From NCBI GenBank assembly GCA_027459485.1, contig DAIDIG010000001.1:383989-447988 (forward strand): a DNA stretch of 64,000 bases, read 5' to 3'. A program made the position numbers and the translations under genes. A model generated the notes under the pieces. The model ran no database searches. It had not been told where the DNA came from and worked only from the letters and a program-made list of their open reading frames with translations. Source of the DNA: Bdellovibrionales bacterium. Lineage in GTDB: Bacteria; Bdellovibrionota; Bdellovibrionia; Bdellovibrionales; UBA1609. Positions 28,567 to 43,774 of the stretch are shown here, piece after piece (within the stretch, counting starts at the first letter, position 1; each line of letters starts with the position of its first letter).

Positions 28567-28830
28567 TTGCAAGTCATAGTGAAACGGGGCGCTAACGAAA
28601 ACTCAAGCCTCAAAAGTCTAATCGAGTTTTTAGCAAAATCTGACGGCATAAAAAACTTTTTTGCTGCCTCAGAAGTGCAAACGATACTCACGAAAACAAT
28701 GCCCGAAGTGTTAACGCTTGAGCTAAAAAAGAGGCAACTTGACCGCTGGATTGAGTACTGGAATGAATACAAGGTGAGAAGGGGAGATTATGCGAAAATT
28801 TATGCGGGCACGCGGATTTTCTCTAGTTGA
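28567..28830 (+). CDS. Small hypothetical protein upstream of a prepilin gene
   Basis: An 87-residue helical, charged protein with no signal peptide. The TTG at 28567 has a strong AAGGAGG seven bases upstream, which supports translation. The 3' end overlaps the prepilin gene by 41 bases, suggesting coupling. No family recognised. The upstream part may be missing, as the neighbouring gene looks truncated. Confidence 0.5.
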   Translation: MQVIVKRGANENSSLKSLIEFLAKSDGIKNFFAASEVQTILTKTMPEVLTLELKKRQLDRWIEYWNEYKVRRGDYAKIYAGTRIFSS

Positions 28831-29692
28831 GATTCTAGTTGCGCTAGCTGTGATGGCCATCGGCATTCTGGCACTCACGAATTATATATCGTTGATTTCG
28901 AACCAGCAGCGACTTCTAATGCAGAAATCAGAAGCGATTGCGATTGATACAAGCTTAACGAATATCATAAATTCGGCCAACCAACACTGCAGCGGTAACA
29001 TTAAAGCTGCCAACATAAGCTTTCCGACAGGGCACCCTCCTACGGCGCCCGTAAACGTTGCATGCCCAACGTGCACAGTCACAGTTTTCAATTACTATAA
29101 TACATCGGGAGCAATCGTCGGCCCCGCAGTGCCGATGGGTCCGCAACCGGACGGTAGCGGGCTTGATGTTGAAAGCATACAGCTAGAAAACATACAGTAC
29201 ATTAGCGCAACTGAATATAGCGGGGACTTGTACATCAACTATGGAGGACCGCCCCCAGCTCCGCCCTCAGCTAAAGTTGCATCCGTTATACTGCTAGCAT
29301 CAACTTCAGGTGGTTCAGATACGCTCCAGTCGTGCAACACTTCGGCCCCGTGCCCGGCCGGCTTCACTCTAGTTGGTACTTCAGGCACTCCGGGTGCATT
29401 TTGTATCAGCAACGACAGTGCACAGGCGCCACTTTTTACGGCTGTGGCAAACTGTGCCGCACAAAATACCCATTTGTGTACGGCCAACGAATGGTTGGCT
29501 GCTTGTGACACTATCTCTGGATTTGATTATTCGCACCAGCAGTGGGTTGCTCCGATCTATACAGGATGTGGTTCCCCTGGATGTTTTGATACGGCCGGAG
29601 GCGGCGGTGGTTACACGTGTGCCATAGGTGCAACTGGCGGTGCCGGCTTCAACACAGCGGATTGGTATAGGTGTTGTGTCCCAGAACAATAA
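28790..29692 (+). CDS. PilV-like prepilin with Cys-rich C-terminal module
   Basis: A 300-residue type IV prepilin-like protein. The class III leader (MRKFMRARG) is followed by the cleavage motif G/FSLVE with Glu at mature position 5 and a hydrophobic helix ILVALAVMAIGILALTNYI, which is processed and N-methylated by the prepilin peptidase in this family. The rest is a large extracellular region with many Cys, ending with HLCTANEWLAAC and WYRCCVPEQ. A similar YxCCxP ending occurs before the S74 domain of the reverse-strand prepilin gene near 35.5 kb. Probably a minor pilin or pilus-tip adhesin. Confidence 0.85.
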   Translation: MRKFMRARGFSLVEILVALAVMAIGILALTNYISLISNQQRLLMQKSEAIAIDTSLTNIINSANQHCSGNIKAANISFPTGHPPTAPVNVACPTCTVTVFNYYNTSGAIVGPAVPMGPQPDGSGLDVESIQLENIQYISATEYSGDLYINYGGPPPAPPSAKVASVILLASTSGGSDTLQSCNTSAPCPAGFTLVGTSGTPGAFCISNDSAQAPLFTAVANCAAQNTHLCTANEWLAACDTISGFDYSHQQWVAPIYTGCGSPGCFDTAGGGGGYTCAIGATGGAGFNTADWYRCCVPEQ

Positions 29693-29790: not shown

Positions 29791-29879
29791 CGTAATTAAG
29801 AGGTAGGGGCTTGCTAGACTGAGGGCCGATACTAACAGGTCATAATTTTTTGTGTCTAACAAGCCGAAAAGTTAGTGAT

Positions 29880-31601
29880 ATGTCTGCCCATTTCAAATTT
29901 GCCACCGGCCTCGTCATTTGCGTTGCCGTACTAACGACTGTGCAGACTCGCGCCTCGAATTCGGCGCTGTCAGAGGCCGGCACTGCGGGGCAGATCTGCA
30001 CTAACTGTTTGAGTTCAACAGGCTCAGACCAAGGTGCGCCACTCAGTTCACGCAATTTAAAAATGATAAAAATCACGGTGAAAGCACTGCGCTCAGACAT
30101 CACCGCAAAGAATGAATGTTTGCAAATCGTGAATTCTAGAGAGTGTCAAAATCTTTACGCAAAGATCACAAAAGCCGGTCACCAGCTCAATCAATTTAAG
30201 CGGGATTGCAGTGACACTCAATATGACAGAAACCAAATTGCTCAAGCTCTAGCCACAATCTTTCTAGGAGCAAACAACTCCGTCAGCAAAAAACTTCATG
30301 AAGAGGACGTTGGTTTCGTCAAGGGGGTCGGGAAGAGTGTTTACAACGGTGTCAAATCTTCTTTCGAATGGGCTGGCAAATCGATTGGTCAGACCGCCGG
30401 ATGGATTGTGACAAATCACGAATGTAATGCGCACATTCAGTCTAAAAAAATTCTTTACGAGTCACTAAATGCCGATTTGCCAAAGGGATATAAACTCACA
30501 CATGTAACCGACCAAGCTCTCAATAATTATAGTTGTAACAATATTAAAGAAGCATATCGAATGAATATGATCAGTTGGCGTGCGCACAATGGCGTGTATA
30601 AGTCGACTGACCCAACCGCCGTCGACGAAGAGATACAGGGGATTGCGCGAGGTATGCTTGCGCTCACAGAGAAGAATTTAAAGAAATTTCGTATTCAATA
30701 CGAATGCTACAATTCGAAAAAGCAAGGCGAGTTGATCGGTGCCGCGTTTGGCACTATCGCACTCAACGTCGCGCCTGGAGGTGATGCTGCAGAAGCCGCC
30801 GAACTAGCTTATGACGCAAGAAAAATCGGCAAAATTGCGGGTCTTGGCAAGGAGCTTGACGATGCTACGCCGCTGGTCACAGCCGATAACCCCCAGTTTA
30901 GGGCCATATATGCAAAGGCGCCAGCGGCCAAAATAGAGATCGATAGACTGGCCGATAAAGTTGCAGCGGAAAATAGTGGTACGGCAGCCAAAGTGCGATT
31001 GAAGGATGAGGATCGGGCTCTTAAGAAAATTAATAACAATTACAGTGGCAAAATTAGCCGTTTGAAGGATGTGGCACGCAATACTGTGGTCGTACCGAAA
31101 GATAGGATTCAATCGGCTATCGATGCGATAGAGGCGGTTTATCCGGACGCCAAAATTAACGTCGTCACTTCTAAATCAAACCCGCGAGGGTGGAGCATGG
31201 TGAATGCTACTATTCCCACAAAAGCAGGGATACCGGCTGAGATTCAGATTAACTCCCCTGAAATGATTTATGCGGGATTCAAAGAGTCTGAAGCTCGATC
31301 GATTCTTGGAGATTCCACTTACAATGCGATCGAAAAGAGGGTCGGTATGCGCGGTGGTCTTTCTCATATTCTCTATGAACAGGTACGCACTCTCCCGGAT
31401 GCAAACCCTCGCAAGACGGAAGTTGAAGATCTCTGCCGCCAATATCATGATATTGTCCGGCAAGGAGCATCGGGAATGTCCCGATCAGCTCAAAAAACAA
31501 TGATCAAAAATTTCGATACGAGCCTAGCTAAATACATTCGGACTTATGACTCTGGAGATAGACAACTCATGAATATGGGGGCACCGCTGCCCGGGCACTA
31601 A
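29880..31601 (+). CDS. Exported protein with C-terminal RelA/SpoT-synthetase-like domain
   Basis: A 573-residue protein with a Sec signal peptide (FATGLVICVAVLTTVQTRAS). Residues about 25-340 are a helical, Cys-containing region without recognised family. Residues about 370-515 fit the RelA/SpoT nucleotidyltransferase fold as found in ToxSAS and phage-type toxins: RLKDVARNTVVVP (RD-type strand), RGWSMVNATI (in place of GYRSLH), AEIQINSPEM (EIQ motif) and SHILYEQVR. Cytoplasmic relatives make alarmones or pyrophosphorylate tRNA. Export of such a domain suggests a toxin aimed at another cell. ATG 29880 is preferred over TTG 29850. The gene converges on the HD-like gene three bases away. Confidence 0.75.
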   Translation: MSAHFKFATGLVICVAVLTTVQTRASNSALSEAGTAGQICTNCLSSTGSDQGAPLSSRNLKMIKITVKALRSDITAKNECLQIVNSRECQNLYAKITKAGHQLNQFKRDCSDTQYDRNQIAQALATIFLGANNSVSKKLHEEDVGFVKGVGKSVYNGVKSSFEWAGKSIGQTAGWIVTNHECNAHIQSKKILYESLNADLPKGYKLTHVTDQALNNYSCNNIKEAYRMNMISWRAHNGVYKSTDPTAVDEEIQGIARGMLALTEKNLKKFRIQYECYNSKKQGELIGAAFGTIALNVAPGGDAAEAAELAYDARKIGKIAGLGKELDDATPLVTADNPQFRAIYAKAPAAKIEIDRLADKVAAENSGTAAKVRLKDEDRALKKINNNYSGKISRLKDVARNTVVVPKDRIQSAIDAIEAVYPDAKINVVTSKSNPRGWSMVNATIPTKAGIPAEIQINSPEMIYAGFKESEARSILGDSTYNAIEKRVGMRGGLSHILYEQVRTLPDANPRKTEVEDLCRQYHDIVRQGASGMSRSAQKTMIKNFDTSLAKYIRTYDSGDRQLMNMGAPLPGH

Positions 31602-33088: not shown

Positions 33089-35263
33089 TCATGGATTAAC
33101 TGTACCGCCGTAGAGCGATCCCGTGCCGACGACAGTGCCGTTGACAGTAAGCGTGCCACCGCCTTTGGTGATCGTGCCACCGTTTAACGTCAAATTGACT
33201 ACGGTTAAAGCGTACCCAGCCATATCCCAAGATGCAGTGGCCGCGCTGAGCGTGAGGCCGCTGGATGCTCCCGAATTCATCGCAGTACTTTGCGTGATCG
33301 CCGCAGCCGTATTCGAGTCGGTCACGCCACCCGAAGGCCATGTGGCCGAGCCGCTCACTGTTTGGGCCGAGGTGCCGTCGAGGTTAATGGCGGTCGTGCC
33401 GGCGGCGTTGCCGGTGAAGGTGACATTGCCGGTAACGTCTAAAACATGACCGTCAATGGAGTTCGTGTTCGTGCCTGCAATAGTTAAATTGCCATTGACA
33501 GTAAGGTTTGCATTAAGAGTTATGTATTGCGAAGTCAGATAATCAAATGTGAGATTATTGAACGCAAGAGAACCGGGTGTAATCGAATAGAAATTATAAT
33601 TTTGGATATCGAATGTGACGCCATAGCCGTTGAGGTTAACCGTACCTGCCGTATAGGTCCAACTGCCCATTACAGTAAGTGCGCTTGCGACTGAAACCGT
33701 CCCCGCACTGTCGAAGTTAATTGATGGTATGCTACCGCCGGTTTGAGTAACAGTTTGGGTGCCTGAGCCGTCAAGCACAATTTTGGCGTAGCCGTTAGCA
33801 TTGTTACCGCCGCTTACAGTCAGATTGCCTGCGACATCCATTGTGGCGTTATAGGTCCCGCTGGCGATTGTGAGATCGCCGCTCACAGTAATCGGATTAG
33901 CCGTCGCTGACAAAGTGCCAGTCGCTGAGAGAGTTAAATTAGTAAATGCAATTGCATTTGATACATTGTAGTTGGCGGCGCTTTTAAATGTAATACCGTT
34001 GCCATTGAGATTCACTGTGCCTGCCGTGTAGTACCAGCTCCCAGTCACGGTCAGGGGGTTTAGAATCGAAACAGTTCCTGTTGAGTCAAATTTAACAGTG
34101 CCGATTTCGCCACTTGCGGTACTCGAAATAGTTTGAGTACCCGAACCATCAAATACCCAGGTCGCCATATTCCACGGGTCGGTTCCGCCATAATTAGTTA
34201 ATGTCACGTTGCCTGAGATATCCAAAGTGCCGCCGTTTACGGTCCAACCTGACGTGGAATTGGTAGTGACATTACCCGCAATAATCATTGGGTTGGCACC
34301 AGCGATCCAGGCGTCGCCGCCGCCGCCAAATTCCACGTTATTGTATGTTACCGTGCTAGGAGAAATGTCATAATTGCCGCCGCCGACGTCAAAATAAAGA
34401 GTGCTACCGGCCATGTTGACGGTCGCGCCGCTATATACATACCAACCTTCATTGGCACCACCGCCTGTTAGCGTAATAGTTTGGGCGCCAGCCGTAAATG
34501 TGCCGCCTGCAAAGACAGAGTGATATATGGATAGGCCAGCGGTTGAACCGATGAACGTCCCAGCTAACTCGACAAAACCATAGAGAGAATTTTGGGTGCC
34601 AAGCGCGACCGTGTAACCGCTACCTTGCGTGATTGTTCCGGCGTAAGTGCTGGCCATGCGAATGCCAGCGACCGAAATATTTGCATTAATCGTAGGCGAA
34701 CAATTGCTTGTGCAAGTTCCATCAAACAAAGCCACGTTCCATGACCCGGGGGCTACACCACCAGACCAATTAGCCGCAGTTGTCCAGTTGGCGTCGGCAC
34801 CTGCGCCCGTCCAGACGAAATTATTCGTGTTTACGGTTTCGGTTTGTGTCGCACCTACGTAGCCAGTCGCCGAAACTGTAAGAGTGGGTGATGATACGGA
34901 TGTGTCGACAAAATAAACGGTGTTGGATGTAGCCGTCGTGGCAATCAACGTCGTTGTGGTTGTTTGTGAGCACATAGGATCAGAGTAAAATGTCACTCCG
35001 GCGGGGCCCGAAAGATTCACTGTGACAGTAGAGGATGGCTTAACAACCGTCCCCGGCACTGTGGTTGTCTCAATTGTAAACGCACCGGAGCATAGCCCCT
35101 CGGCAATCGATTGCGTCGCCGTCGTGATGACAAGTGTGGGTGTGTGCCGCTTCCAAAACGCCGGGGTGAGCCACTGCGCGTGGGCGATTGGTGCTACGCA
35201 CGTGGCAACTACGCTCGCGACGATGCAGATTACAACAGCTGCAGTGAAGGGCAGGTGTTTCAT
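33089..35263 (-). CDS. Large exported repeat adhesin, beta-helix-like
   Basis: A 724-residue protein with a signal peptide ending AHAQ near residue 29. An Ig-like region follows (about 40-150), then a WTGAGADANWTTAANW segment typical of autotransporter or adhesin passenger starts. The rest is Thr/Gly/Asn-rich with short strands. Two long repeats share DGSGTQT, then TGSWYYTAGTVNLNG / MGSWTYTAGTVNLNG and GxGxTF (encoded near 34160-33980 and 33785-33610), with a third weaker copy. There is no autotransporter barrel. It is the last gene of the prepilin operon, nine bases after the S74 prepilin gene, so it may be displayed with the pilus-like proteins. Confidence 0.75.
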   Translation of the reverse strand: MKHLPFTAAVVICIVASVVATCVAPIAHAQWLTPAFWKRHTPTLVITTATQSIAEGLCSGAFTIETTTVPGTVVKPSSTVTVNLSGPAGVTFYSDPMCSQTTTTTLIATTATSNTVYFVDTSVSSPTLTVSATGYVGATQTETVNTNNFVWTGAGADANWTTAANWSGGVAPGSWNVALFDGTCTSNCSPTINANISVAGIRMASTYAGTITQGSGYTVALGTQNSLYGFVELAGTFIGSTAGLSIYHSVFAGGTFTAGAQTITLTGGGANEGWYVYSGATVNMAGSTLYFDVGGGNYDISPSTVTYNNVEFGGGGDAWIAGANPMIIAGNVTTNSTSGWTVNGGTLDISGNVTLTNYGGTDPWNMATWVFDGSGTQTISSTASGEIGTVKFDSTGTVSILNPLTVTGSWYYTAGTVNLNGNGITFKSAANYNVSNAIAFTNLTLSATGTLSATANPITVSGDLTIASGTYNATMDVAGNLTVSGGNNANGYAKIVLDGSGTQTVTQTGGSIPSINFDSAGTVSVASALTVMGSWTYTAGTVNLNGYGVTFDIQNYNFYSITPGSLAFNNLTFDYLTSQYITLNANLTVNGNLTIAGTNTNSIDGHVLDVTGNVTFTGNAAGTTAINLDGTSAQTVSGSATWPSGGVTDSNTAAAITQSTAMNSGASSGLTLSAATASWDMAGYALTVVNLTLNGGTITKGGGTLTVNGTVVGTGSLYGGTVNP

Positions 35264-35272
35264 CGTTAGTAG

Positions 35273-37009
35273 TTATCTTTCAAAACATTGCGAATCTGTT
35301 GTGGGGTTAGCCCCATGAAAGTGAATACCAATCATTCCATAACGAACGGCGAGGTAACCATCTTTTATTGTCACTGCATAAGGATCTTTTTTCAAAACTT
35401 CTTGCGCAATAACTCCTATATAGTATTTATTTGGGTCAACCCAGTCATTACCAGCCAGGCGCCGCGCTTTCTTCTTGTACTTGAAGCGATAGATATTAAA
35501 CCCATGTTCTTGGCCAATTAGAACAACATCAGTTTTTAATCGAAGGTCGGAAGTCGTAGATGGCTGACAACATTGGTAAACATAGCCTATGGTATCACCA
35601 TTTTCATACACAACACCACCGCATCCAGCATCCCCTGTAAAACCGTTATTAATATAAGTCAGGCAATATTGTCCGGCTGTTAACGACGGAGTACCTGATG
35701 TCGGGCAGGCTCCGACAGGTATAGAGCAACCGAAAGGTACTGGCGGAGTTACCGTTGCACTACCCGTACAAGTCAAATTAGTGCCAAGACCGGAACTAGA
35801 ACCCAACCACGGACAACCATAAGCGCCCACGTTACTATTAGTCGCGTTGCAAAGGTATAGATTGCCACCTGCTAAACCGACACCTGAAGAAATCATGGTG
35901 CCGCCGGCGCAACCGCTCGATGTCGCGCTACTACACGTCGGCGCAGGCGTTGTGGCCACCTGCCATTGGCCGGTTGAACCGCAAGTGAATGTCGCGCTAC
36001 CGGTTAAATTCGAAGCGGTGTTATTGATAACCACAGACGTACCAGGGGCAGTGGCGGTACCTGGCTGAAGGGTTGAGCTACTGCACGTGTTACTACCGAC
36101 GTGCCAACTCCAATTCGAATATTGAGGGCAAAGCGTGGTGGTCGAACCGGTACCAGTATTTTGAGCGTAGTTCGCGCAAACATTGTACTGACCGACGATG
36201 CCCGCCAAATAAGTGCCGGGACCACACGCGCTATTTAGACCGCCTGGGTCTGCGCAAATGATCATTCCGCTTTGATCCACGCCAATTGGGATTTGATTCG
36301 GGTTCGAACATCCAACTGAATAGGTTGGGCACGTACAGGCTGGGTTATTTGCTGAATTGTACGTGCAGCCCATGTCTTGACAAACTGCACTCGCCGATTG
36401 AGTGACGCCGCCACGACAATCCACAATTGCCCCACTGCTATTGTTGAGGTCGAGTGTGAGCGTGCCCACAACAAAAGGCGGCGAAATATTTTGTGTGCCA
36501 GCCGATGTTATCGGCCCCGTTTGCATGACCAATTTTGCAATGTACTCGTCGATACCCGGTTGAATATTGGATTGGACGAGGTAGCCTTCTTGAACGTCTA
36601 AACTGTAAATTTTAAGACCCATGACGGGTAGCACATTATCGCCCGCGCTCGACGAAATGGTGTTTCCGGTACCACTGACTCCCGAACCGATGCCGGGGAT
36701 ATAAAGTTTAACGGGTTGGCCGGTTGTCGTCTTCCAATTATTGCCCGTCAAACTGATGGGATTTGGATTTGTCGTCGCAGTGCCCGGGTAAGCCCCGGCC
36801 GCCATTGCGGCATTACAAAGATCCGCAAAGCTGACTTTTTCTTGAACGATGTTATCAAGCTGCAACTCATCATTTACCGCAACAGTTTTCTGTACCTGCT
36901 GATTCACATAATTGGCCACCTGCGAGGCCGCGAGCAAAACAACCCCACTTACGGCGACGGCCGTCATCGTTTCAATTAATCCAAAGCCATTTTTTATACG
37001 TCGGTTCAT
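35273..37009 (-). CDS. Prepilin-like protein with C-terminal peptidase S74 chaperone domain
   Basis: A 578-residue protein. The N-terminus is a prepilin leader (MNRRIKNG/FGLIE, Glu5) and helix (TAVAVSGVVLLAASQV). The middle is Cys-rich and includes a CCP/sushi-like module ending GSATFTCGSTGQW then APTC. Residues about 487-578 match the peptidase S74 intramolecular chaperone of phage tail spikes: SDLRLKTDVVLI, FNIYRFKY, GVIAQEV, DPYAVTIKDGYLAVRY. The Ser and Lys of the SDLRLK motif have the spacing of the Ser-Lys self-cleaving dyad. The ATG is chosen over an upstream TTG and has GAGG eight bases before it. Confidence 0.85.
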   Translation of the reverse strand: MNRRIKNGFGLIETMTAVAVSGVVLLAASQVANYVNQQVQKTVAVNDELQLDNIVQEKVSFADLCNAAMAAGAYPGTATTNPNPISLTGNNWKTTTGQPVKLYIPGIGSGVSGTGNTISSSAGDNVLPVMGLKIYSLDVQEGYLVQSNIQPGIDEYIAKLVMQTGPITSAGTQNISPPFVVGTLTLDLNNSSGAIVDCRGGVTQSASAVCQDMGCTYNSANNPACTCPTYSVGCSNPNQIPIGVDQSGMIICADPGGLNSACGPGTYLAGIVGQYNVCANYAQNTGTGSTTTLCPQYSNWSWHVGSNTCSSSTLQPGTATAPGTSVVINNTASNLTGSATFTCGSTGQWQVATTPAPTCSSATSSGCAGGTMISSGVGLAGGNLYLCNATNSNVGAYGCPWLGSSSGLGTNLTCTGSATVTPPVPFGCSIPVGACPTSGTPSLTAGQYCLTYINNGFTGDAGCGGVVYENGDTIGYVYQCCQPSTTSDLRLKTDVVLIGQEHGFNIYRFKYKKKARRLAGNDWVDPNKYYIGVIAQEVLKKDPYAVTIKDGYLAVRYGMIGIHFHGANPTTDSQCFER

Positions 37010-37030: not shown

Positions 37031-38983
37031 CTATTGTCCGCAAACTGTAAATGAAGTCCCAGGGCACGATCCCCCTACAGCACTTAACGGAATATACGCA
37101 ATTCCAACGCTGGCGGGCGGATAAGGAGTGGCCGAAAAACCGCCAACCATAGGAGTGCCGCACTGACAGTTAATACTGTTTGGAGCGCAGTTATTTAACA
37201 TCTTGCATTGACCCGATAGTGAGTAAACCACAGGGCAACCATAAGAGCACTGGACGGCAGAAGAACCCACAGCCTGCCACGTGTAAGGCGACGAGCACTG
37301 CGTGTCTGACGTCCCAACGCTGGGTAAGGTACCTATAGTCAATCTTGCAATTTGAAAACTGCTGTTCACACCAGTCCCACCACAGTAGCTGGTCACAATA
37401 AGATGCATCGGGGTGCTCACTCCGGCCGTACAAGTTGCGCCGGTCGGCGGGCCCCAAGACCCGTTGTTACAAGTAAAAGTAGCTGTGCCCGTACCTCCGG
37501 TTGTTGAAGTCGCCGTTGCTGAGCTACCGCTTGCCCTTGTTGAAACGGGCCCACTGCAAGTCCCGCCAGTTCCTGACCATGACAAAGTTGTTCCGGTGCA
37601 ACTAGCTGGTGCCGGCGAAATCATGAGCGTGTTGGCACCTGGCGTGCCGAGTGCAGCGTATTGGAGCGGCTGCGGATTCGATAAGGCAAACGTCACGGCG
37701 ACTGGATTTGCACTACCCGAATTGAGAACGCTAAACCCTTGACCAATATATTCTTGCGTCACACCTGGCGGAAAAGTCACCGTAAACTTGTTGTTAACAG
37801 CCGACGCTGGTTCGGTATAGTCTATATTTGGCGTGCCACCAGAAATCGTCACATCTACGGTTACAGTTTGGCTGGGTTGAGCTGGCGTTAAATCGAGCTC
37901 AATGTTTGGGTTGCCAGAACCTTGTGCCACCGTCTCATTGGAAACATTAAACTGTATCGTCGAAACATTGGGATAATCGATGGCAGCGCAGCCAACGGCC
38001 CCACCGATGATTTCAGCAAACGCCTGAAAGGGATTTGTTTGGTCGTTTTCAGGTAGCGCCGGATTGACCGGTGGGCAAACTGCTTTGATCAGAGAACATG
38101 TCGCAGTCCCGTCGCCGTTGAATTTACTAATGTACTGGCCCGCCGGGCACTTACATGATCCGTTTGTCGAGCCGTTGCAATTGAGTGTAAATCCAAAACG
38201 GCATTGGGGTGAGAGGTTTGGGTTCCACATGCCGCCATAAAGTTCGCACGTTTGTTGAGGCGACTGCATCACTTCGCAGCCAGTTGGCATACCTGTATGG
38301 GTCATCATAATTTTCATGTTGGCGACCGTCTGCCAAGATGAAGCAATGACGCCATTGTTTGGACTTGTAGCAGTATATTGAAGCGTGCCCTCGATTGTGT
38401 AACCGGCATTGCCAGATAGCACGGCGAGTGGATTAGTCAACTGCGGATTGGGCACGAATCTGAGGCTTGTAATTGTTAACGGGTCAACTCCGTTCAAGTA
38501 CGACCATTGATAAGTATGAGTTACCGCCCCTAAACCCGAAGGCGTATTTGGCGTCTGGCCATTTGGCCATAAACCGCCCGTTGTAGGATCTTGCCCATAC
38601 AATAAAATTTGTTTTCCAGATGAGTCTTTGAACGGAAGGGTGATCATAACATTAACAGGCTGCAGTGGATAATTGCCAAAAGTTGTCTTAAAAACCGATG
38701 ACCAATTTGGGCTGTTGTTACCCATTGGCAAAACCCATGAGTTGCCACCACCAGAAGATGGACTACATAAATTGGGGTTCGTGGTGACGGCAATAAATGA
38801 ATCGCTAAGAGATTGAATGGCATTATTGAAATTTGCCTGAGCTTGCTGCTTTGCAACTGAATTACCTAAGGGAGCCGCACCGGCTAAAATCAACATGACC
38901 ACACCCATGGCCATCATCGACTGAATCAGCGCCTGGCCGCGTTCATTCTCGTACTTGAATAATTTTAAGTCTCGCTTTTGCAA
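37031..38983 (-). CDS. Pseudopilin-like adhesin with Calx-beta and sushi-like modules
   Basis: A 650-residue protein. The N-terminus (NERG/QALIQ followed by SMMAMGVVMLILAGAAPLG) looks like a pilin or TadE-type leader, but mature position 5 is Gln rather than Glu. Residues about 345-450 fit a Calx-beta domain (NETVAQGSGNPNIELDL, then FPPGVTQEYIGQGFSV). A following Cys-rich module (CSGPVST, GTATFTCNNGSWG, ATCTA) resembles the one in the next gene. The start is TTG. It lies six bases before the S74 prepilin gene in one operon. Confidence 0.75.
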   Translation of the reverse strand: MQKRDLKLFKYENERGQALIQSMMAMGVVMLILAGAAPLGNSVAKQQAQANFNNAIQSLSDSFIAVTTNPNLCSPSSGGGNSWVLPMGNNSPNWSSVFKTTFGNYPLQPVNVMITLPFKDSSGKQILLYGQDPTTGGLWPNGQTPNTPSGLGAVTHTYQWSYLNGVDPLTITSLRFVPNPQLTNPLAVLSGNAGYTIEGTLQYTATSPNNGVIASSWQTVANMKIMMTHTGMPTGCEVMQSPQQTCELYGGMWNPNLSPQCRFGFTLNCNGSTNGSCKCPAGQYISKFNGDGTATCSLIKAVCPPVNPALPENDQTNPFQAFAEIIGGAVGCAAIDYPNVSTIQFNVSNETVAQGSGNPNIELDLTPAQPSQTVTVDVTISGGTPNIDYTEPASAVNNKFTVTFPPGVTQEYIGQGFSVLNSGSANPVAVTFALSNPQPLQYAALGTPGANTLMISPAPASCTGTTLSWSGTGGTCSGPVSTRASGSSATATSTTGGTGTATFTCNNGSWGPPTGATCTAGVSTPMHLIVTSYCGGTGVNSSFQIARLTIGTLPSVGTSDTQCSSPYTWQAVGSSAVQCSYGCPVVYSLSGQCKMLNNCAPNSINCQCGTPMVGGFSATPYPPASVGIAYIPLSAVGGSCPGTSFTVCGQ

Positions 38984-39001: not shown

Positions 39002-40723
39002 TCATTGTAACTGATAATTGTGGTTCGACCGGCTCCCGACCGGTACTATTGGTTGCGGCAAAGAGTAATATCCACATTTCACCGTAGAAGCATTCGTGAT
39101 CGACGAAACGGGTTGCGGCACCAGCACACCGTTGTCGCACATTTGGGCCGACTCAATATACTGAGTGACGCCATAACCAGCATCGATAATTTTACCTGCC
39201 GCGGTTGAAGCCCCAACTGCGCAATAGCCACAATATTCGCCTTGCGCGATATTCATCAAACCGCAAGAGCAATCGGTGTTTGTCGAGGGGCTTGCCGGCG
39301 CACCAGTGGTGCTCGGGTAAGTCGTCGCCGCCCCGATATTTGTGATGGATGACGACGAAGCCGCCGAACTTTGCGCGCTAGTTAACGAACTCTCAGAATT
39401 TGAAGTCGCGGGGCAAACTGCGGTGCTCAGAGCCGTACAATTTGGCGTGTGAACTAAGCTACCATAACCGGAAATTATATTTTTGGCGGTTAAACAATCG
39501 ATATAACTTGCCAGCGCGGCCTGGCACTGTGAGGGTACGCTCGATGTGCTAGTGGCTGTTGTGTTTATATTGGCACCGTTTGTTCCTGATACCGGGTTGC
39601 CAGATGTATCGGTAATTGCCGACGATGTCGTTGTATTATTAGTTTGCGCGAGCCCCCCAGTGGTTGTTGGGGTGGTCGTAAGATTTTCTCCGTACGGATC
39701 TAAAGTCGGATTTGGCGTGAATACCGTGCCGGGGTTGGTGACGTTGGGTGGCACAAATCGTGGGCGATCGCAGATAAGGTTGCCATGAATGAGCGCGCTC
39801 GCCACGGTGGCATTCTGCACATTACCACCGCCATCTGAACATACGGTTCGAATATCGGCGCAATGCCTTTGCCCCGCGGTATCGTAGTAACCAAATTGAG
39901 TTAATGGATTGCACGACTGAGTCGTCACCCCTGGTTTACTTAGATAGATTTGGCATTGCTGGGTTGTTGGATTGTAATACATGCCGGCCTGGGTGCAGTT
40001 GTTGCCATTGACTTGCGAACTTGCACCCGCATTGCATGTCGCAACGGTACCAGCAGCGTTTAGGCCAACTGCTACGCGCGTGACAAATTGCCGTGGGCCA
40101 TAACCAGCCCCCATCGCTTCGTTGGCAAGAGCACCAAGGGTTGACTCGTTGCCATTCATTTGAGTGATATAAAGTTCACCCGTGTAGGTCGTGATATTGG
40201 CGCTCGAAGCGACGACCGTCGGGTCGCAATATTGTAAAGCCTCGACTCGCGTATTACCTTCAGCCTCAATGTTTGAATTGCTCCCATTGCTGGCGCTAAT
40301 TGTTGCAGCCCCCGAATGGGTCATAGTGATTATGACGGGTACGCATTTACCATTACTTAAATCTGTCAGATAATTCGGATCAGTTGCTGTATCAAATTGA
40401 AACGAGTGGGCACAACCTTGCACAGCTGGTTGACCATTTACGGTCGTAACCGTACTTGCATCCCTTGCATCAGTGAGCTCGCTTCGCATATTACTCACAA
40501 GCGACGAACCTGCAGTTTGGTTATTTGCCGTCTGCATAGTTTTGGCGGCGTTGACGATGATACCGCCTGTGACGAGAGCCACCATCGAAGAAATACCCAG
40601 AGAGACCATCAATTCGATCAGTGAGAAGCCCTGGTGACACCGCGCTGATCGGGTACCACGCCGGCTCGATCGCCTCAAAATGAGTGTCTCTAAATAAGAT
40701 GAAATAAAACGTACCGATCTCAT
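39002..40723 (-). CDS. PilW-like prepilin, large and Cys-rich
   Basis: A 573-residue protein whose 31-residue basic leader precedes the motif G/FSLIE (Glu5) and helix LMVSLGISSMVALVTGGII, the standard prepilin N-terminus of PilW-type minor pilins. The mature part is much larger than PilW and rich in Ser, Thr and Cys, without a recognised domain. It is the first gene of the reverse prepilin operon, 18 bases before the next gene. Probably part of a pilus-like surface structure. Confidence 0.82.
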   Translation of the reverse strand: MRSVRFISSYLETLILRRSSRRGTRSARCHQGFSLIELMVSLGISSMVALVTGGIIVNAAKTMQTANNQTAGSSLVSNMRSELTDARDASTVTTVNGQPAVQGCAHSFQFDTATDPNYLTDLSNGKCVPVIITMTHSGAATISASNGSNSNIEAEGNTRVEALQYCDPTVVASSANITTYTGELYITQMNGNESTLGALANEAMGAGYGPRQFVTRVAVGLNAAGTVATCNAGASSQVNGNNCTQAGMYYNPTTQQCQIYLSKPGVTTQSCNPLTQFGYYDTAGQRHCADIRTVCSDGGGNVQNATVASALIHGNLICDRPRFVPPNVTNPGTVFTPNPTLDPYGENLTTTPTTTGGLAQTNNTTTSSAITDTSGNPVSGTNGANINTTATSTSSVPSQCQAALASYIDCLTAKNIISGYGSLVHTPNCTALSTAVCPATSNSESSLTSAQSSAASSSSITNIGAATTYPSTTGAPASPSTNTDCSCGLMNIAQGEYCGYCAVGASTAAGKIIDAGYGVTQYIESAQMCDNGVLVPQPVSSITNASTVKCGYYSLPQPIVPVGSRSNHNYQLQ

Positions 40724-43141: not shown

Positions 43142-43774
43142 TCACATATGGTAGGCCAGAAAAACGCTGCCGTTTGAGAGTTCTTGAACAAGCTCGGTTG
43201 AGTATTGTGGGTTCACGGCAGGGCAGCCGAGAGAGCGTCCGAGGTAACCGAGCACATGAATTGTTTCTTCTGATACGTAGGGGGCGCCGTGGAGCACGAT
43301 TCCCCGGGCCTCGGCATTGCTGTTGGTTGGCTCCATGCCGTGAAGAATCATAGAAAGCCCGTGCTCGCCGATGTACGGTGCCCCTGTCAAATAAACTCCC
43401 AGCGATGTCATCCAAGAGTTAAGTTCGTTAGAAAACCGAATTGCGTATTTTTCGCCCGAGTTTCGGCCGTGGGCGACCAAATATTTTTTTAAGGCAAGCG
43501 ATTGCAAATTGATCACGTACATTCGCTCAACAGTTGAAGGCAGATCGAAATCGATTATTGTCATGTAGCTCGTGTTGTGAACAACATTTTCGTTGGCAAC
43601 CAAAAAACCAAAAGCCTTAATTAAGGCGGGTTTCGGTAGTTCGGGATATTTTGAAGCGAGTGTCTGTTCGATGGCAGACCAGCTTTGCGCTTTAGCGGGA
43701 GTTGGCGCTAGACTTACAAGAATAAATAATAAACAAATGGATTGAATCGATACGAGTCTTAAGCTGCCCCTCAT
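43142..43774 (-). CDS. Murein L,D-transpeptidase-like protein (YkuD_2 type)
   Basis: A 210-residue exported protein (signal peptide to about residue 29). The catalytic region reads RGIVLHGAPYVSE and then GRSLGCPAVNP, with the His and nucleophilic Cys of the L,D-transpeptidase catalytic family that has the SxGCPA signature. Such enzymes cross-link or edit peptidoglycan or attach proteins to it. It is followed 48 bases upstream by another transpeptidase gene on the same strand. Confidence 0.85.
   Translation of the reverse strand: MRGSLRLVSIQSICLLFILVSLAPTPAKAQSWSAIEQTLASKYPELPKPALIKAFGFLVANENVVHNTSYMTIIDFDLPSTVERMYVINLQSLALKKYLVAHGRNSGEKYAIRFSNELNSWMTSLGVYLTGAPYIGEHGLSMILHGMEPTNSNAEARGIVLHGAPYVSEETIHVLGYLGRSLGCPAVNPQYSTELVQELSNGSVFLAYHM

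Follow-up and report, generated by a model that had tools for sequence, protein, structure and literature searches.

The window, a 64,000-nucleotide stretch of a Bdellovibrionales genome, carries a minor-pilin cluster in which one prepilin ends in a peptidase S74 domain (Table 1). The gene of this protein, hereafter the S74 pilin, is a single intact open reading frame with zero internal stops. The preliminary description of this DNA had placed a prepilin leader and an S74 domain together in one gene; the single open frame of 578 codons confirmed this, and the limits set there, 35273-37009, are exact for the ATG-started frame.

Table 1. Features of the minor-pilin cluster and of the S74 pilin (positions are those of the window)
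Feature	Position	Strand	Basis or remark
Secreted, repetitive and beta-rich protein of 724 aa, without a known family	33089..35263	-	begins 9 nt after the S74 pilin
Modular minor prepilin with C-terminal short-class S74 domain	35273..37009	-	578 aa, ATG start
AT-rich tail, residues 450-578	35276..35662	-	base composition
Short-class Peptidase S74 / intramolecular chaperone auto-processing domain, about residues 486-566	35312..35554	-	profile matches, tree, predicted fold
GVIAQEV conserved core motif	35396..35416	-	sequence
SDLRLK, presumed catalytic Ser487 and Lys492 (SDxxxK dyad)	35534..35551	-	predicted scissile bond Thr486-Ser487
Cys-containing repeat module CPQYSNW...GSATFTCGSTGQWQ...TC	35912..36130	-	sequence comparison
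Pilin module, residues 9-206	36392..36985	-	51% and 28% identical to its homologues among the minor pilins of two genomes of the same genus
Class III (prepilin) leader MNRRIKNG	36986..37009	-	sequence; TIGR02532; PF07963
Large PilX/GspK-like minor prepilin, Gln not Glu at +5 (GQALIQ; GQALIQSMMAMGVVML), candidate tip cap	37031..38983	-	sequence; same-position homologues in G003, G004
PilW-like prepilin, first minor pilin of the cluster (GFSLIE; GFSLIELMVSLGISS)	39002..40723	-	sequence and profile searches

The N-terminus of the S74 pilin is MNRRIKNG followed by FGLIETMTAVAVSGVVLLAASQ, and prepilin cleavage is expected between Gly8 and Phe9. FGLIE follows the cut, with Glu at mature position 5, so the leader with Glu5 that had been described is borne out. 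Gly at position -1, the hydrophobic stretch and Glu5 are those of a class III leader. The TIGR02532 prepilin motif scored 18.6 bits, above its cut-off of 16.3. PF07963 was slightly below its cut-off of 21.2 in the protein search (20.6 bits, E 3.2e-4) and above it in the genome search (25.3 bits). Profile matches place an additional S74 domain on this prepilin, as in a modular pilin. The Cys-containing repeat module between the two also occurs in the adjoining large minor pilin and in relatives.

The PilX/GspK-like and PilW-like genes lie upstream of the S74 pilin on the same strand, and the gaps between the minor-pilin genes are 18-21 nt. The gene order of the cluster is identical in two genomes of the same genus, G003 and G004. 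The S74 pilin is thereby clustered with minor pilins that include one without Glu5. In the published core minor pilin model, the tip complex is capped by a subunit that lacks Glu5 (PMC10191384). By analogy, we infer that the large PilX/GspK-like prepilin is a candidate for such a cap and that the S74 pilin probably sits in the pilus tip complex. The T4P PilY1 domain had no match in the genome; therefore, the downstream 724-aa protein, or the large pilins themselves, may be the adhesive tip. A separate PilV-like prepilin with a Cys-rich end module (CTANEWLAAC...WYRCCVPEQ) is encoded on the opposite strand at 28790-29692 (+).

The C-terminus of the S74 pilin was assigned by several searches. PF13884 gave 21.5 bits (E 2.9e-4) against a cut-off of 22 in the protein search, and 25.5 bits, above the cut-off, in the genome search. 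PHROG 6121 (E 1e-10) and PHROG 4287 (E 2e-9) matched the same region, and tblastn matched it to phage proteins annotated as 'peptidase S74' (best E 2e-7). A profile that contained the window sequence, with a majority of viral rows, reached the solved S74/ICA domains 6f45, 7dc3 and 3gud at E 3e-6 to 2e-5. A phmmer search of the PDB with the single domain gave no significant match (3gud, E 0.76). No match to the S74 pilin was found in the plasmid collection, and neither of two contig scans, one by the full-length protein and one by the S74 alignment, returned relatives, their peptide patterns being probably too specific. Judged from the sequence matches, the S74 assignment is well beyond chance. 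The motifs that the preliminary description had listed for this domain (SDLRLK, GVIAQEV and YAVTIKDGY) are all present, and its length of 92 residues is exactly that from Ser487 to the C-terminus. Ser487, Asp488 and Lys492 form the SDxxxK catalytic motif. Each of the 101 short-class relatives from phages and viruses, whose loci had been extracted without requiring SDxxxK, has the Ser, Asp and Lys.

An AlphaFold2 monomer model of residues 440-578, built from an alignment of S74 relatives, had a pLDDT of about 85-96 within the S74 domain. In VIA-align, the top chain was the ICA domain of MyRF (7dc3), with a modest Z of 4.4 at 4.5 A over 63 residues; the next row had a Z of 2.7. Structural matches among viral proteins bear the name 'intramolecular chaperone auto-processing' (E down to 4e-8), and several of them had an rmsd of 2.5-3.1 A over 83-85 columns. 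Foldseek against the PDB returned unrelated chains only, all at E above 1 and mostly kinases; the small size of the domain may be the reason, along with the inclusion of the model's low-confidence N-terminal part. With a pLDDT of 34, the model of the full-length protein from its single sequence was uninformative.

The S74 domain of the window belongs to a short class that keeps the cutting residues and lacks the coil. The window protein ends only 21 residues past the conserved core, and 9 is the longest run free of Pro and Gly, whereas canonical cellular S74 copies have at least 31 residues after the core (median 64) and a median Pro/Gly-free run of 46; the few smaller values in the after-core list belong to phage loci (L101-L104), a prophage-like protein at L108/L223 and the G043 protein. 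The C-terminal trimerising coiled coil of fibre-type S74 domains is absent from the window protein. Upstream of the domain, no repeat of the VGIGT/YKLDVNG type is visible in its sequence, and a Cys-containing segment stands there instead. In 92 viral open reading frames, the median length after the core was 11 residues, and in nearly all phage relatives the protein ends 64-91 residues past the Ser. Truncation of the gene by a frameshift was considered and rejected, since the G043 protein and the phage relatives stop at about the same place.

The closest relatives of the domain are the G043 protein and phage proteins. The former has 171 aa and a twin-arginine-like leader, and is 52% identical to the window S74 domain over the domain length. 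In a tree of 178 S74 domains, with few columns, a bootstrap that had not fully settled and viral rows gathered by similarity to the window domain, the window, G043 and marine viral rows form a group with 98/92 support. This group falls inside the short class, apart from nearly all canonical copies, including those of the same order. A profile search of 369 genomes of the phylum gave 92.7 bits for G043 and 91.2 for the window, the latter score being inflated because the profile includes the window sequence; the next match, at 69.6 bits (G094), resembles a phage protein. In annotated phages, the short-class domain terminates structural or ejection-region proteins of 272-340 aa and one protein of 871 aa. 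These are non-fibre virion proteins rather than recognisable tail fibres. A paper on the P22 ejection proteins makes no mention of S74. At L040:9285-9800 (+), the short-class S74 domain of the window protein is found again in a small protein, which also has a twin-arginine-like leader and a Cys-rich segment.

The base composition of the gene changes before the S74 domain. The GC content is 51-58% for residues 60-450 and 38-44% for residues 450-578. The S74 part has 40.1% GC; the 146 coding fragments of this length (279 nt) in the window have 51.5 +/- 3.9%, and none of them was as low. The minor pilin of G003, 51-55% identical to the window pilin, is cut off by the contig end. The syntenic minor pilin of G004, in the same three-gene order, is more distant and has no S74 match; its identity of 28% is insufficient to prove strict orthology. 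Homology between the window and G004 pilins runs through about residue 366 (E 1e-15) and fades after residue 447. An earlier reading, in which this homology continued to the Cys-Cys motif before the S74 domain, was dropped, as the blastp support ends at about residue 447. Five other genomes of the same genus, some of them incomplete, gave no S74 match. Because the tail is AT-rich and S74 is absent from the G004 homologue and from the other same-genus genomes, the simplest reading of the sequences is that the tail is apparently a recent graft from phage-like DNA.

The prepilin-S74 architecture is already known. Raynaud et al. (2021) screened InterPro for proteins that join a prepilin motif to another domain, and the combination IPR012902-IPR030392, an N-terminal prepilin motif and S74 in one protein as in the window, is among their 15 commonest 'modular pilin' architectures, listed without functional work (PMC8179133). 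We found no published work on the function of such fusions. S74 matches occurred in 95 of 141 genomes of the same order, and several single-contig genomes carry 13 each; B. bacteriovorus HD100 has 13 S74 fibre proteins (PMC10769870). Many of the open reading frames around chosen S74 hits have a prepilin-type N-terminus. Both PF07963 and PF13884 were found on nine of ten proteins in a first test and on one more (L046) in the next set, with PF07963 slightly below the cut-off in several of them. Proteins at L041, L042, L231, L240 and L253 and the first gene at L239 have a prepilin-like leader without Glu5 or below the Pfam threshold. The search for further fusions, which had been proposed as a check, thus yielded about ten with both Pfam domains in the same order and several more with prepilin-like leaders; since the frames were chosen non-randomly, mainly shorter ones, these counts are examples and not a frequency.

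The canonical fusions of the order (for example L219, L226, L234 and L247) resemble the window protein in having a prepilin leader and S74 on one frame of a large minor pilin. They differ in their coiled-coil-type tail, in the VGIGT...YKLDVNG-type repeats that many have before S74, and in their tree group. At L219:1836-6394 (+), in a genome of the same family, three prepilin-S74 genes stand in tandem (504, 524 and 515 aa). All three have a canonical S74 domain with a coil, and they could form a hetero-trimer at the pilus tip. Two prepilin-like S74 fusions are in tandem at L239:1421-3501 (+) and again at L240:1526-3500 (+). Two S74 classes have therefore been grafted onto pilins, one the coil-bearing fibre type and the other a short phage type that lacks the coil; what seems new here is the latter, apparently recently acquired.

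Other known systems share parts of this arrangement. Short-class S74 of phages (PHROG 6121 and PHROG 4287; for example Microcystis phage Mae-JY35, Pseudomonas phage AH02 gp11) has the same terminal domain of about 70 residues with SDxRxK, GVxAQE, a short end and no coil, but its fusion partners are virion proteins other than fibres, with Gly-rich segments upstream, whereas the window domain is fused to a pilin. The MAT fibres of Bdellovibrio are likewise bacterial surface proteins with S74 and SDxxxK, and cleavage of one of them, Bd3182, occurs at the Ser of this motif (PMC10769870). Unlike the S74 pilin, they are signal-peptide-exported, trimeric fibres of about 1,000 aa with a self-cleaving fibre-type S74, and they are not pilins. 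Their conserved beta-rich domain of ~130 aa follows the signal peptide, while the window protein has a prepilin leader in place of a Sec signal peptide. The ICA domain of MyRF (7dc3) belongs to the same domain family and has a Ser-Lys dyad with the same +5 spacing. This eukaryotic protein cleaves itself by the dyad only as a trimer, and its C-terminal coil, absent from the window domain, is the main trimerising force and is required for cleavage (PMC8326128).

We consider it very probable that the window protein is a modular minor pilin with a short-class S74 domain. It is encoded in the minor-pilin cluster, and in the reading that we prefer it would belong to the tip complex of a type IV pilus (or pseudopilus), while its C-terminus would have gained the short phage-type S74 module along with the AT-rich segment with Cys that immediately precedes this module. 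Prepilin peptidase would cut between Gly8 and Phe9, and the S74 pilin would then enter the tip complex with its tail displayed outside. The module would most likely still do what it did ancestrally, cutting itself before Ser487 in step with folding and freeing a fragment of 92 residues. This cut may be coupled either to folding or to the host protein's assembly, not to the chaperoning of a homotrimeric fibre. We give this explanation as a whole, a modular minor pilin of the tip complex with a grafted short S74 and a retained self-cut, a probability of about 60%.

The preliminary description had pointed to trimer-forming self-cleavage and an unusual assembly route for a pilus tip or fibre. As a trimeric pilus-tip fibre, this would mean that three copies trimerise via S74, which folds the upstream part and afterwards comes off, like the S74 of phage tail spikes. 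Membership of the S74 family with an intact dyad agrees with this, and bacterial S74 fibres of Bdellovibrio do self-cleave and trimerise (PMC10769870). CofB and TcpB are minor pilins that form tip trimers (stated in PMC8179133), and among the canonical prepilin-S74 fusions of the order are some that have VGIGT-type repeats as well as a coil. Yet the window copy is of the short class, without the coil and with no triple-beta-helix repeat visible upstream, and a related pilin is without S74. Neither a trimer-forming S74 nor trimer-driven assembly of the pilus tip found support here, and an S74-driven trimeric fibre is unlikely for the window protein. It is plausible for the canonical fusions, which, including the three in tandem, are better candidates for it. 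Equally improbable is a neutral read-through or recent fusion, in which the end of the gene took up phage-derived DNA and the resulting tail is functionless. The AT-rich tail, the lack of S74 in other same-genus genomes and the long unmatched end IHFHGANPTTDSQCFER fit this, but the frame is intact with every class-invariant residue retained, and the identity to the G043 domain extends along its length. An assembly chimera of a pilin gene and a phage fragment would account for the abrupt GC shift at residue ~450; we regard it as very improbable, given one continuous open frame and a downstream cluster gene that resumes 9 nt past the stop with normal composition.

The main rival to the preferred reading of a self-cutting module is an inert one, a small S74 surface domain grafted for display or binding at the pilus tip without self-cleavage. 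Binding modules are common on modular pilins (PMC8179133), the trimerisation element is absent, and the nearest bacterial relative, the G043 protein, is small and exported-looking. Against it, the short class has kept Ser and Lys throughout, which suggests that catalysis is under selection. We take the inert module to be possible, though less probable than the self-cutting one. For the self-cut itself, the window S74 domain could be inactive, because MyRF cleaves itself only as a trimer and trimerises mainly through its coil, which the window domain lacks; we put the chance that the domain cleaves itself at somewhat under even. More tentative is the idea that a subunit at the pilus tip could shed its terminal phage-derived module, or clip it, by a coil-less S74, with oligomerisation in the tip complex, not the S74 coil, as the trigger. 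If the short class does self-cleave, S74 activity would be independent of the coil, and some pili may bear self-clipping tips.

Several minor observations were made alongside. Stand-alone proteins of 147-178 aa at L261, L262, L263, L268, L269 and L270 consist of nearly only an S74 domain with a coil. They carry FGGIxEFNLxEIExEVLNxSxYLDVFAGSDxRFK..., and no export signal was seen in them. In the window, a secreted-looking protein of 583 aa is encoded at 29850-31601 (+). Nothing significant was found in it by Pfam; its C-terminal third (RLKDVARNTVVVP...ATIPTKAGIPAEIQI) presumably resembles the RelA/SpoT-like domains of polymorphic toxins. The gene at 43142-43774 (-) encodes an L,D-transpeptidase of the YkuD_2 family (PF13645, E 3e-51).
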